A stretch of 40,094 nt of DNA. Origin: Deltaproteobacteria bacterium (GTDB lineage Bacteria; Desulfobacterota; Desulfobaccia; Desulfobaccales; 0-14-0-80-60-11). The DNA lies in the NCBI GenBank assembly GCA_016875015.1, contig VGSJ01000021.1:1-40094 (forward strand), given 5' to 3'. Positions 15,902-20,701 of this stretch are shown piece after piece; the first letter of the stretch is position 1; each line of letters starts with the position of its first letter. The notes under the pieces are model-generated. The model worked only from the letters and a program-made list of their open reading frames with translations. It searched no databases and had not been told where the DNA came from. The position numbers were made by a program, and so were the translations under genes.

Positions 15902-17866
15902 TTATAGCTCCACCTGGCTGCCCAGCTCCACCACCCGGTTGGGCGGAATGCCGAAGTAGGTAGTGACGTTCCAAGAGTTCCTGGAGAGGAAGGCGAACAG
16001 CCCCTTGCGCCAGGAGGCCATATCCGCTTTGCCGGTGCTCAGAAGGGTTTCCCGGTTCACGTAGAAGGTGGTGGAAAAGGTGTCGAGTTCCAATCCCTGC
16101 TCCGTGGCGATTTCCAGGATGTTCGGAACGTTGGGGGTTTCCATGAATCCGTAGGTGGCTATCAGCCGGTGGAAACCCTGGCCCAAATCGCTGATGGACA
16201 ACCGGTCTTCCCGGGCGACATAGGGGGTGTTGGCGGAGACGACGGACATCAGGACCACCCTCTGGGGCAGGGACTCGGTGTGTTTCAGGAGATGGAGCAG
16301 GGTAATGGGGGTGCCGAAGGGGGAGACGGAGAGGAAGGCGCCGGTCCCGGGGGTGCGCACCAGTTTATATCTTTGAATATCCTTTAAGATAATTTCTATA
16401 GGCATCCGGGCGTCCTCGTTGCGCTTGGCCAGCAGAGCCCGGCCGTCCCGCCAAGTGAGCATGATCACGGTGAGAACCACGGCCACGGTTATGGCGAACC
16501 AGCCGCCGTCTACGAATTTGAGGAGATTGGCGCCGAAATAGGAGAGATCGAAGAACAGGAAGATGCACGCCGGCAACAGGGCCTTCCAGGCGGGCCAACC
16601 CCAGTTATATCGGGAAACGTAGTAGTAGATCAGGGTGGTGATGGCCATGGTCCCGGTCACCGCGATGCCGTAAGCCGCCGCCAGCCGGCTGGATTCCTTG
16701 AAGGCCAAAGCCAGCCCCAGGCAGCCGATCATCATCATAGTGTTCACCCAGGGCAGGTAAATCTGGCCCTTGGTTTTGCCGGAGGTGTGCACGATATGGA
16801 GCCGGGGACAGTAGCCGATCTGAATGGCCTGCTGGGTAAGGGAGTACACCCCGGAGATCATGGCCTGGGAGGCGATGACCGCGGCCGTGGTGGCCAGGGC
16901 CACCATGGGATAGAGCAGAATCCGGGGCACCAGTCCGTAAAAGGGATGGGCCGTCGCCTGGGGGTTTTCCAGGAGGAGGGCGGTTTGGCCAAAATAATTG
17001 AGCAAAAGGGCTGGAAAAACCAGAACGGTCCAGGACAGGCGGACGGGGCCCCGGCCGAAATGACCCAGGTCGGCGTAAAGGGCCTCACCCCCGGTGATAC
17101 AGAGAACTACCGCGCCCAGAACCACGACGCCGTGCAGGCGGTTAACGGCAAAGAAGGACACGGCGTAGCGCGGGTCCAAAGCCGCCAGAATCTCAGGTCT
17201 CCTGAGTATCTGGGCCAGGCCCAGGGCGGCAATGGAGGTGAACCAGAACAACATGATGGGGCCGAAGACGTTGCCGATGCGCTCGGTCCCCAGGCGCTGA
17301 AAGAAAAACAGACCGAACAGGACACCGCAGGAAATGGGCAGCACGAAGGGTTCGGCGGCGCTGGTGGCCACATTGAGGCCCTCCACCGCGGAGAGCACGG
17401 AGATAACCGGGGTGATAAGGCCGTCACCATAGAGCAGGGCGGCGCCGAAGATCCCCAAGAGGACGAGACGGTTCACGGTCTTTTCTGAAACCTGCTTGGC
17501 ACCTTTTCCCAGAAAGAGGGCAGCCAGGGCATAGATGCCGCCTTCCCCTTCATTGTCGGCTTTTAAGATAAATATCACGTACTTAATCATCACGACCATC
17601 GTGAGCGACCAGAAGATGAGAGACATGACGCCCAGCAGGTTAACCGGGGTTAGGGACATGGCGTGGGGTCCGTGGAAGCACTCCTTGACGGTGTACAGGG
17701 GGCTTGTGCCGATGTCCCCATACACCACCCCCAGGGCGCCTATGGCCAGAACCAGGGTTCTCTTCCGGTCTTTGCTCCCGGAGGGAGGGGGACCGGAGCC
17801 GTTCAGGTGGGCGCTGCCTGAATAGGACTGAGACGGCGTTCCGTCAGTTGAGGAATCGGTGCTCAT
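15902..17866 (-). CDS. kup: Kup-type low-affinity potassium uptake protein
   Basis: The 654 aa protein is a KUP/HAK/KT family K+/H+ symporter in the cytoplasmic membrane. The family hallmark GVVYGDIGTSPLYT is at 46-59 after a Ser/Gly-rich tail, followed by about 12 membrane helices and a soluble C-terminal domain from about residue 480. The QNSQGV-free order of helices and the KADNEGEGGIYAL and GDGLITPVISVLSA blocks are typical. GGAGG stands 7 bases before ATG. Upstream on the same transcript are a 35-aa microprotein and a c-di-AMP riboswitch, so expression should fall when c-di-AMP signals sufficient potassium, as in other Kup genes under ydaO control. Confidence 0.96.
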   Translation of the reverse strand: MSTDSSTDGTPSQSYSGSAHLNGSGPPPSGSKDRKRTLVLAIGALGVVYGDIGTSPLYTVKECFHGPHAMSLTPVNLLGVMSLIFWSLTMVVMIKYVIFILKADNEGEGGIYALAALFLGKGAKQVSEKTVNRLVLLGIFGAALLYGDGLITPVISVLSAVEGLNVATSAAEPFVLPISCGVLFGLFFFQRLGTERIGNVFGPIMLFWFTSIAALGLAQILRRPEILAALDPRYAVSFFAVNRLHGVVVLGAVVLCITGGEALYADLGHFGRGPVRLSWTVLVFPALLLNYFGQTALLLENPQATAHPFYGLVPRILLYPMVALATTAAVIASQAMISGVYSLTQQAIQIGYCPRLHIVHTSGKTKGQIYLPWVNTMMMIGCLGLALAFKESSRLAAAYGIAVTGTMAITTLIYYYVSRYNWGWPAWKALLPACIFLFFDLSYFGANLLKFVDGGWFAITVAVVLTVIMLTWRDGRALLAKRNEDARMPIEIILKDIQRYKLVRTPGTGAFLSVSPFGTPITLLHLLKHTESLPQRVVLMSVVSANTPYVAREDRLSISDLGQGFHRLIATYGFMETPNVPNILEIATEQGLELDTFSTTFYVNRETLLSTGKADMASWRKGLFAFLSRNSWNVTTYFGIPPNRVVELGSQVEL

Positions 17867-17886
17867 GGGAAGTCCTCCAAATCAGG

Positions 17887-17994
17887 TCAGGGCCAAGGCA
17901 ATAACGATGGGACCGTTGCCCCCGGTTTCCGGGGCAGATAGATGAATAACCCCACCAGGAACAGATTGACCAAGATGAGAATGATAGCTTTCAT
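17887..17994 (-). CDS. 35-aa hydrophobic microprotein upstream of kup
   Basis: A 35-codon frame lies between the riboswitch and kup, ending 20 bases before the kup start. It encodes one hydrophobic helix (start MKAIILILVNLFLVGLFIYL) followed by PRKPG and a short Pro-rich tail. GGAG stands 11 bases before the ATG, a rather long spacing. It recalls in size and layout KdpF, the small subunit of the Kdp potassium pump, but similarity was not demonstrated. It may be a Kup accessory peptide or a translated leader. Confidence 0.5.
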   Translation of the reverse strand: MKAIILILVNLFLVGLFIYLPRKPGATVPSLLPWP

Positions 17995-18262
17995 GTATCA
18001 GGGGACTCCCTAACTTTTAGATCCGCACCATAATTGAGGCGGATTACTCATACAGTGAGGCCGGAGCAAGGCCCCATTCGGCCCCAAACCCGCGCTAATC
18101 CTCTGCAGGTGTTTTCGCGGCGGCGGCGTCTTTCCATGAGGTGTCAGGGAGAATGGGATTCCGGCCCGGGGGGCGGCGTCGGACTGGGGCTGGCGGCGAA
18201 TAAACGACCGTCAGATAAAGCGGCTGTCTGAACGGGGGGATATGACTGGGCGGGAAGTCCCC

Positions 18263-18290
18263 TAAAAGACCCGCCCAGATGCGCGGCGGG
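18263..18290 (-). terminator. Terminator-like hairpin downstream of the riboswitch
   Basis: On the minus strand CCCGCC (18290-18285) pairs with GGCGGG (18275-18270), directly followed by TCTTTTA. The same GGCGGG can instead pair with a second complement at 18248-18256 as part of a 9-bp CTGGGCGGG/CCCGCCCAG stem. The two stems are mutually exclusive, which suits a terminator/antiterminator switch under riboswitch control. The U tract is short. Confidence 0.45.
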
Positions 18291-18317
18291 CGGCTCAATA
18301 TCTATGTTTGCCATACC

Positions 18318-18470
18318 CTCCTCCTGCCTACGGGGTTAGCTGCCGGGCTCGGGCGGGAGGTGGCTTGCCCTACCGCATTGACGAACTATGCGGATTCGCC
18401 CCAAAAACTTGGGTCCCCCGCTTCTCCGTTTGGGTTTCGGAGAATTCGGCGGTTGGCCGAATGGAGCTGT
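18318..18470 (-). ncRNA. ydaO/yuaA-type c-di-AMP riboswitch
   Basis: Reading the minus strand, the conserved blocks of the ydaO class appear in order: CCGCCGAA (18452-18445), GGGGGACCCA (18419-18410), GGGGCGAATCC (18402-18392), and the 3' hallmark CCCGGCAGCTAACCCCGTAG within 18353-18326. Spacing is compatible with the known fold of two pseudo-symmetric ligand sites. It starts just after a promoter and lies upstream of the microprotein and kup. The class binds c-di-AMP and usually turns off K+ uptake or wall genes. Boundaries are approximate because the P1 stem was not modelled. Confidence 0.92.
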
Positions 18471-18484
18471 GACCAACGACTATT

Positions 18485-18513
18485 ACTTTAATTTTTTTTT
18501 GCAGCTACGTCAA
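18485..18513 (-). promoter_or_regulatory. Promoter of the riboswitch-microprotein-kup transcript
   Basis: Minus strand TTGACG (18513-18508), a 17-base spacer with an A9 run, and TAAAGT (18490-18485). The predicted start near 18478 places the riboswitch at the very 5' end of the RNA. Confidence 0.6.
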
Positions 18514-18690: not shown

Positions 18691-20076
18691 ATGACGCCAA
18701 TAAAGGCGAAAAGCAGAATTCGCCTGTTGCTCGGGCTGCCGGAGGCCTTGCTAATCATCGGTTTCGGGGGCGTAATTATCCTGGGGACGCTCCTCCTCAG
18801 GCTGCCTTGGACCCATCAGCCGGGCAAGGTCAGCTTTCTGAACGCCCTATTCACCTCCACTTCGGCCGTGTGCGTCACCGGCCTGACCGTGGTGGATACC
18901 GGCACCGACTTCACCCGGTTCGGCCAGATCGTCATCCTGCTGCTGATCCAGGCCGGCGGTTTAGGCATCATGACCTTTGCGGCCCTCATGTTCCAGTTCC
19001 TGGGGCGGCGCCTGTCCCTGAGGTCCCAGTCGGTGCTCCACGGGTCGTTCTTCCAGCAGGACATCGGCGTGAACTTCAAGACCATGTTCAGGCGTATCCT
19101 CTGGCTCACCGCGGTGACCGAACTCTTGGGCGTCGCGGTGCTCTTCGCAGCCTTGCTGCCCCAGGCCGCCCATCTGGGCGAGACCCTGTTCCAATCGGTT
19201 TTTCATGCGGTGTCGGCTTTTTGCAACGCCGGTTTTTCCCTTTACAAGGACAATCTGGTGGAGGTGCGCCACAACCACCTCTTTACCATCGCCATCATGG
19301 GCCTCATCGTCATCGGCGGTCTGGGCCACACCGTGGTCCACGAACTGTGGCAGCGGGCGGAATGCCGGTTTTCCCGCCGCCGGGACCGGGATATTGACTG
19401 TCGGCGCCTCTCGGTCCACGCCCGGGTGGTGCTGCGGTTCACCGCCATCCTGATCGTCGGGGGAGCGGCCGTCATCCTGGTCCTGGGGCTCACCGCGGCC
19501 GAGACCTCCTGGGAGGCCCGGCTGGCCGCGGCCTTGTTCCAGTCCATCACGGCCCGGACCGCGGGCTTCAACACCGTGGACATCGGCCGTCTGCCCCTTG
19601 CCTCCCTGCTGCTGATCTCGATACTGATGTTCATCGGCGGCTCTCCGGCCTCCTGCGCCGGGGGCATCAAGACCACCGTGTTCGCCATCTCCTGGGCGGA
19701 GCTACGGGCCAGGGTCCGGGGCGAAACCGAGGTCAGGCTGCTGGACCGCCGGATCCCCAACGAAACCTTGTGGCGGGTCTCCTTGTTGCTGCGTCTGGCC
19801 CTGTTGTGGAATATCGTGGGGGTCTTGTTGCTGTTGGTCACCGAGGGCGCCCGTCCGGGGATCGGCATGCACGACGTGATTTTCGAGCAAATCTCCGCTT
19901 TCGGCACGGTGGGCCTCTCCACCGGCATCACCGACAAGCTCTCGGCGCCCGGTAAGTTATGGATTATAGCCACCATGTTTGTGGGCCGCTTGGGACCGTT
20001 GACCCTGGCCATGTGGTTTTTCACACCCAAACCTGGCCCCGTTCAGTATCCCGAAGGAAAAGTGATGATCGGATGA
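18691..20076 (+). CDS. ktrB: KtrB/TrkH-family potassium channel subunit
   Basis: The 461 aa membrane protein has the four-fold M1-P-M2 layout of the TrkH/KtrB/HKT superfamily. The four selectivity-filter loops are visible: TSTSAVCVTGLT (about 54-65), HAVSAFCNAGFS (about 170-181), TARTAGFNTVD (about 286-296) and SAFGTVGLSTG (about 401-411), each with its filter glycine. It conducts K+ into the cell and is normally gated by a KtrA ring. Its stop overlaps the ktrA start (ATGA). A weak GGAAG precedes the ATG. Because ktrA is broken here, the channel may be ungated, use a KtrA encoded elsewhere, or be non-functional. Confidence 0.93.
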   Translation: MTPIKAKSRIRLLLGLPEALLIIGFGGVIILGTLLLRLPWTHQPGKVSFLNALFTSTSAVCVTGLTVVDTGTDFTRFGQIVILLLIQAGGLGIMTFAALMFQFLGRRLSLRSQSVLHGSFFQQDIGVNFKTMFRRILWLTAVTELLGVAVLFAALLPQAAHLGETLFQSVFHAVSAFCNAGFSLYKDNLVEVRHNHLFTIAIMGLIVIGGLGHTVVHELWQRAECRFSRRRDRDIDCRRLSVHARVVLRFTAILIVGGAAVILVLGLTAAETSWEARLAAALFQSITARTAGFNTVDIGRLPLASLLLISILMFIGGSPASCAGGIKTTVFAISWAELRARVRGETEVRLLDRRIPNETLWRVSLLLRLALLWNIVGVLLLLVTEGARPGIGMHDVIFEQISAFGTVGLSTGITDKLSAPGKLWIIATMFVGRLGPLTLAMWFFTPKPGPVQYPEGKVMIG

Positions 20077-20701
20077 AGCACAAAAAACATATCTGTATAA
20101 TCGGCCTGGGCGAGTTCGGGACCGAGCTGGCCAGGGAACTGTCCCGGGAATGCGAGGTCCTGGTCCTGGACCGGGATGAGAATCGCGTCAACGCCATCGT
20201 GGACCAGGTGCAGCGGGCCCTGATCCTGGACGTCAGGGATTTTGCCGGCCTGAGTTCGGTGGTCACCGCGGACTTCGATGAGGTCATCGTCAGCATCGGC
20301 GAAGACCTGGAGGCCAGTATCCTGTGCACCCTGCACCTGAAGAAGATCGGGGTGCGGTCCATCCAGGCCAAGGCCAAAACCGGGAGACGGCCCGCCGGGT
20401 GGCCGCCCACATTATCAACCCCAATCTCCTGGACTTCGTGCCCCTGGAAGCGGATTACCGGGTGATGGACGTGGCTCCGCCGGATGATTTTTACGGCTCC
20501 AGCCTGGAAGACCTTGAGCTGAGAAAACGCTTCGGGGTGTTCGTCATTGCCATCCGGGAACTGGTGCCGGCGCGCTTAGTGTTTTTGCCCGCCCCCGACT
20601 TCGTCATCAAGCCCAGCGACGTGCTGGTGGTGATTGGCCGGGAGAAGGACCTGACGGGGGTTCAGGACTGGAAGAAACCCGTGCCGTTCCAGGAGGGCTA
20701 G
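20073..20701 (+). pseudogene. ktrA: KtrA/TrkA RCK regulator, broken by an internal deletion
   Basis: KtrA binds NAD(H)/ATP through its RCK_N domain and c-di-AMP through RCK_C, and gates KtrB. The first frame (20073-20465) gives a good RCK_N start with GLGEFG at 11-16 and the acidic DRDE near 33, up to IQAKAK at 20361-20378. After that the homologous text continues in another frame from RETARRVAAHII (20381 onward) through the RCK_C domain (VMDVAPPDDFYGSSL, SDVLVVIGREKDL) to 20701. About 20 residues that normally join these parts, including the usual ...ILEKxGAxxVIFPE-like stretch, are absent. So this is a deletion of roughly 60 bases that is not a multiple of three, either real or an assembly error. 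Confidence 0.82.

Follow-up and report, generated by a model that had tools for sequence, protein, structure and literature searches.

A kimA-leader-type c-di-AMP riboswitch upstream of kup in a Desulfobaccales genome, with a candidate expression-platform variant

Upstream of the potassium transporter gene kup in a deltaproteobacterium of the Desulfobaccales lies a leader in which a first-pass annotation had placed a promoter, a ydaO-type c-di-AMP aptamer and a terminator-like stem, all ahead of a transcript thought to encode a microprotein and Kup. The locus raises the question of which gene this switch serves, and by what means it would do so. The window, that is the whole stretch of DNA analysed, comprises 40,094 nt of contig VGSJ01000021.1. 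We refer to its own genome as G000 and to its congeners as G001, G002 and G003; completeness is 99.96% for the window genome, 97% for G002 and only 72–73% for G001 and G003.

The aptamer and the genes behind it

The features that bear on the target of the switch are as follows.

18485–18513, minus strand: promoter-like site TTGACG-17-TAAAGT, sigma-70-like (consensus scan)
18311–18461, minus strand: c-di-AMP riboswitch aptamer, ydaO/yuaA type, RF00379 (full-length match, 89.4 bits)
17887–17994, minus strand: 35-codon ORF (the 'microprotein'), a kimA2-like gene truncated to its 5' end (DNA homology to kimA2)
15902–17866, minus strand: kup, intact, 654 aa, with Shine-Dalgarno sequence (SD) TTTGGAGG at 17881–17874 (PF02705, E=2.5e-184; TIGR00794 over cut-off)

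The RF00379 covariance model matches the leader over its full length (model positions 1–134) at 18461–18311 of the minus strand with 89.4 bits (E=8.5e-20), against a gathering score of 38 bits, and this is the sole match in the 3.1-Mb genome. The conserved blocks picked out by the first-pass annotation belong to a real, well-preserved c-di-AMP aptamer, for which ligand binding is predicted. The promoter that it placed before the aptamer, at 18513–18485, is borne out as well, as TTGAC and an AT-rich -10 element are also found at the equivalent position before orthologous aptamers.

The 35-codon ORF between the leader and kup had been read as a small gene in its own right, a reading that we abandon. 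It matches the 5' end of kimA2 of the congener G003 at 80% over 60 nt (E=5e-9), with an alignment score of 59, where shuffled sequences reach 27 at most; the homology ends around codon 25 and the kup SD begins within 40 nt. KdpF or another known small protein was rejected (best Pfam E=0.09, none above cut-off, with clear kimA homology), as was a purpose-built microprotein gene, the ORF being homologous to the 5' end of the full-length kimA genes of relatives. The first part of the window leader in turn resembles the kimA1 leader of G003 (67% over 182 nt, E=1e-5). A search for kimA found nothing elsewhere in the window genome, whereas kimA is found in all three congeners, in which the orthologous aptamer precedes kimA1 (G003) or kimA2 (G001 and G002). 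A search for kup found no homologue in the three congeners, at the completeness given above. The window genome holds two copies of kup, on contigs C21 and C52, the C52 locus being without an aptamer; the named close relatives of kup belong to Desulfobacca-like and other Deltaproteobacteria MAGs. Judged from these comparisons, a former kimA riboswitch now stands upstream of kup in the window genome, and the simplest history would be that kimA1 and most of kimA2 were lost, so that the kimA promoter, aptamer and leader came to lie before kup.

RF00379 aptamers are carried by 31 of the 99 related genomes, the window's own counted. Many lie 57–65 nt before kup, and others precede kdp genes, other permease genes or a KimA-like permease of ~620 aa whose only PDB match is KimA (E=9e-8); in G022 and G027 the order is aptamer-kimA-aptamer-kup, each transporter with its own switch. 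The association of c-di-AMP with potassium is a clear and, on these gene neighbourhoods, well supported theme across the family. A kup-type riboswitch, with the aptamer 57–65 nt before kup and anti-SD-like hairpins of its own (G005, G008, G024 and G027), was considered for the window and rejected, as the window leader is of the kimA type and is without those elements. At two further loci, L058 in G057 and L069 on contig C224 of G010, the aptamer precedes what look like kdp genes, and at the latter it is directly followed by an SD/ATG leader ORF as in kimA-type leaders. A second RF00379 aptamer class, with the pseudoknot UGCUUUAG/UUAAAGCA, is present at L065–L068 (G022, G024, G026 and G027) and in three of these four loci precedes a secreted-looking protein of ~118 aa, which may be a cell-wall (3D-domain-like) protein.

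The pseudoknot and the leader ORF

Between the aptamer and the kimA remnant the leader contains further elements, some of them overlapping.

18356–18360, minus strand: CCUCC, 5' strand of the pseudoknot, within the loop of a GGGC..GCCC hairpin (loop-tail matching)
18316–18324, minus strand: GGAGGAGGG, pseudoknot 3' strand and SD of the leader ORF at once (leader comparison, loop-tail matching)
18144–18314, minus strand: leader ORF (uORF), 56 codons, ending PESHSP-stop (SD/ATG and open frame in relatives)
18264–18293, minus strand: GC-rich hairpin (18293–18271) followed by GTCTTTT, inside the uORF, in this genome only (fold, -15.9 kcal/mol)

In the window CCUCC (18360–18356) can pair with GGAGG inside 18324–18316. 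A loop-tail pairing, of CUCCUUCG with CGAAGGAG, is readable from the printed sequence of the crystallised ydaO RNA (PMC5393176). Across 38 distinct aptamers the loops form a mean of 7.14 pairs with their own tails as against 4.95 (sd 0.22, maximum 5.93) with swapped tails, none of 2000 shuffles reaching the observed value, where G-U pairs are scored as half and the sequences are related rather than independent. The pairing is realised by distinct loop/tail solutions, among them CCUCAUCG/CGAUGGGG, CUUCCAAG/UUUGGAAG, UGCUUUAG/UUAAAGCA and CCUCCU/AGGAGG; the window copy has only 5 pairs left, against 6–8 in most relatives.

Leaders of the kimA type use the 3' strand of this pseudoknot a second time, as uORF SD: in all 12 related leaders the aptamer is immediately followed by an SD with the sequence GGAGGAGG, or one like it, and then by an ATG. 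A pattern search of 395 genomes of the phylum finds this arrangement of SD after aptamer only in the window's family of Desulfobacca-like bacteria, in G073 and, doubtfully, in G279. With its SD serving as 3' strand of the pseudoknot, the uORF should have its start hidden in the ligand-bound fold. However, the ligand-free minimum-energy folds of several leaders also bury the SD, through a longer helix CCUCCUGCC/GGCAGGAGG that is present in G003, G001, G018 and G010, and for this reason the direction of the switch is one that we infer. As a conserved switch helix CCUCCUGCC/GGCAGGAGG was rejected, since it is broken up in five kimA-type leaders (G000, G002, G009, G019 and G021); as the pseudoknot pairing persists in them, it is the pseudoknot that we take to be the conserved element.

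The uORF frame is free of stops for 34 codons in all 12 leaders, against 2 and 8 leaders for the two alternative frames. Five genomes share the PESHSP-stop end, where all differences are synonymous or stop-codon swaps. The body of the uORF is weakly constrained, with differences of 209, 209 and 249 at the three codon positions, and in G014 similar nucleotides are kept in a shifted frame; this weak constraint on the peptide counts against the reading preferred below. The uORF stop overlaps the kimA start in two genomes, G001 and G002, and precedes it by about 10 nt in G073, which favours translational coupling in these three genomes. In the window, by contrast, a gap of 149 nt follows the uORF stop before the stub ORF begins, so that direct coupling of the uORF to kup is unlikely there.

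Two other observations concern the same stretch of the leaders. The sequence GCGCC..GGCGC-AUCC recurs ~20–45 nt past the uORF ATG in kimA-type leaders (about 18295–18270 in the window) and in several members of the family its translation gives an APxAHP-like motif; it could reflect RNA structure or peptide. In G009 the leader that separates aptamer and kimA, 0–590 nt 3' of the aptamer (L043), contains part of the 3' end of a second kimA, in the uORF frame and with 49% identity over a stretch of 87 residues; here too, kimA has left a trace of duplication and deletion.

The terminator-like stem of the first-pass annotation exists, as the hairpin at 18293–18271, but its loop is long and its T run interrupted, a terminator scan does not call it, and the orthologous leaders, congeners included, are without it. 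The idea that the leader carries a strong rut signal was rejected: the maximum excess of C over G, 20 per 78 nt, is reached in 7% of segments of 190 nt from this locus, and is therefore modest and not decisive.

The c-di-AMP enzymes and the trk neighbours

A gene for the diadenylate cyclase for which the first-pass annotation had proposed a search is present. The window genome has one clear cyclase gene, cdaA (L002, G000:C71:2329-2685; 132 bits to PF02457), in the order folP-like, cdaA, ybbR/cdaR-like (neighbours named from sequence), and it also encodes a phosphodiesterase of the PgpH type (PF07698). The CdaA motif reads GTRHLAA in the window genome against GTRHRA in 20 of 20 relatives, the three congeners included. 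In DacA of M. tuberculosis, ATP binding and activity were both lost when RHR was replaced by AAA (PMC3328451). The single R-to-L difference in CdaA could be a change of the catalytic motif or a sequencing error; since the enzyme needs this motif in order to be active, the window genome may have a weakened c-di-AMP control. A protein of ~516 aa encoded elsewhere in this genome (L003, G000:C53:11515-11880) has a DAC-like match of 21.6 bits, below the cut-off, and matches in G001 and G002.

On the other side of the leader lie two trk genes.

18691–20076, plus strand: trkH, divergent neighbour (PF02386, E=2e-57)
20079–20701, plus strand: trkA/ktrA-like gene, frameshifted and interrupted by an internal gap of 58 nt (aligned to the intact 221-aa trkA of G024)

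The first-pass annotation had counted ktrA as a further target of c-di-AMP, provided that it was intact. Because of the gap and the frameshift, which leave TrkA_N and TrkA_C in different frames, it is not; further TrkA_N proteins are encoded elsewhere in the genome. Taken together, the loss of kimA, the broken trkA and the RHL of CdaA suggest a relaxed c-di-AMP control in the window genome. The broader proposal, that c-di-AMP controls potassium in this lineage, is clear from the potassium-transporter targets in relatives, although such control may be weakened here.

A proposed mechanism, its rivals and known systems

We propose that the leader is a c-di-AMP riboswitch of the kimA-leader type, in which the ligand masks the SD of the uORF, on whose translation expression of the potassium importer depends, and that kup is now the regulated gene, perhaps under weakening control; we give this reading as a whole a probability of roughly 45%. 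The parts that the sequence comparisons establish are the aptamer, the promoter-like site, the pseudoknot with the uORF SD as its 3' strand, and the replacement of kimA by a stub and kup. At high c-di-AMP, when potassium is replete, the ligand-folded aptamer would keep the pseudoknot and the uORF SD would be masked; the uORF would then stay untranslated and the downstream importer off. This could come about because translation is not passed on, where stop and start overlap as in relatives, or by early termination of the untranslated leader, by Rho or, in the window genome, at the uORF hairpin (18293–18264). At low c-di-AMP, ribosomes would occupy the uORF and the importer would be made. With kimA gone from the window genome, kup would be left as the regulated gene. 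A more far-reaching version, which we put forward only tentatively, is that this is a lineage-specific design, in which the pseudoknot holds the SD and c-di-AMP gates a licensing uORF, and that the switch was captured by kup after the loss of kimA while the cyclase is being inactivated.

A simpler possibility is an ordinary transcriptional OFF-switch, with c-di-AMP promoting intrinsic termination at the hairpin 18293–18271, in the manner of the Bacillus kdp leader, and with the uORF incidental. The stability of that hairpin and the GTCTTTT behind it are in keeping with this, and intrinsic termination is the established mode of the B. thuringiensis kdp switch (PMC6488665); however, the shortcomings of the hairpin described above, its absence from orthologous leaders among them, and the fact that no antiterminator was found make this rather unlikely. 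The opposite polarity, in which the unliganded SD is held in the CCUCCUGCC/GGCAGGAGG helix, the ligand frees it and the translated uORF represses the gene behind it, would agree with the minimum-energy folds of the four leaders that have this helix, and in M. tuberculosis metE uORF translation can suppress the downstream gene (PMC11260477). As the helix is interrupted in the window and four other leaders while the pseudoknot pairing persists, we consider an ON-switch of this kind improbable.

Two further explanations concern the window genome itself. After the loss of kimA and the change in the cyclase the switch may be a decaying relic that regulates nothing, kup being constitutive from this or another promoter. 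The stub, the broken trkA, the RHL of CdaA and the shortened pseudoknot all point this way, but the aptamer is still near-consensus at 89.4 bits, PgpH is present and the RHL could be a sequencing error, so that on balance we think a relic unlikely. Finally, the junction of stub and kup might be chimeric, the genome being a draft in 148 contigs and the congeners being without kup at the equivalent site. Such an artefact is very unlikely because the 99.96%-complete genome has no other kimA sequence to misjoin, and trkH lies divergently upstream on the kimA contig of G009 too.

On the reading that we prefer, the locus is, as far as comparison of sequences can tell, a known riboswitch class with a candidate new variant of the expression platform and a case of regulatory rewiring. 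It shows a riboswitch outliving the loss of its gene and coming to precede a functional substitute, and it offers a simple c-di-AMP expression platform, with an SD in the pseudoknot and a leader ORF, outside the Firmicutes and Actinobacteria. The congeners, in which kimA is intact and the cyclase has RHR, provide a natural comparison for the way in which a second-messenger circuit that is otherwise often essential decays.

Familiar examples of RF00379 are the switches of B. subtilis kimA (ydaO) and B. thuringiensis kdpFABC. The window shares with them the aptamer, potassium-uptake targets, the order promoter-aptamer-gene and the loop-tail pseudoknot; unlike them, it has a pseudoknot 3' strand that is the SD of a leader ORF, is without a conserved intrinsic terminator, and has a kimA stub and kup in place of the kimA target. 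In M. tuberculosis, B12 and Mg2+ riboswitches control uORFs via coupling and/or Rho (PMC11260477, PMC12810186). The ppe2 B12 riboswitch and the pe20 Mbox resemble the platform proposed here in being translational and in needing uORF translation for the downstream gene, which is experimentally shown there and which we infer for the window; their ligands and aptamers are different. In the SAM-II riboswitch of Sinorhizobium meliloti metA the ligand sequesters an internal SD, and the main gene lies further downstream with a terminator between (PMC9373788). The likeness to the window is an SD within the riboswitch and a main gene that starts further downstream, although metA uses an in-frame second AUG rather than a separate uORF and responds to another ligand.
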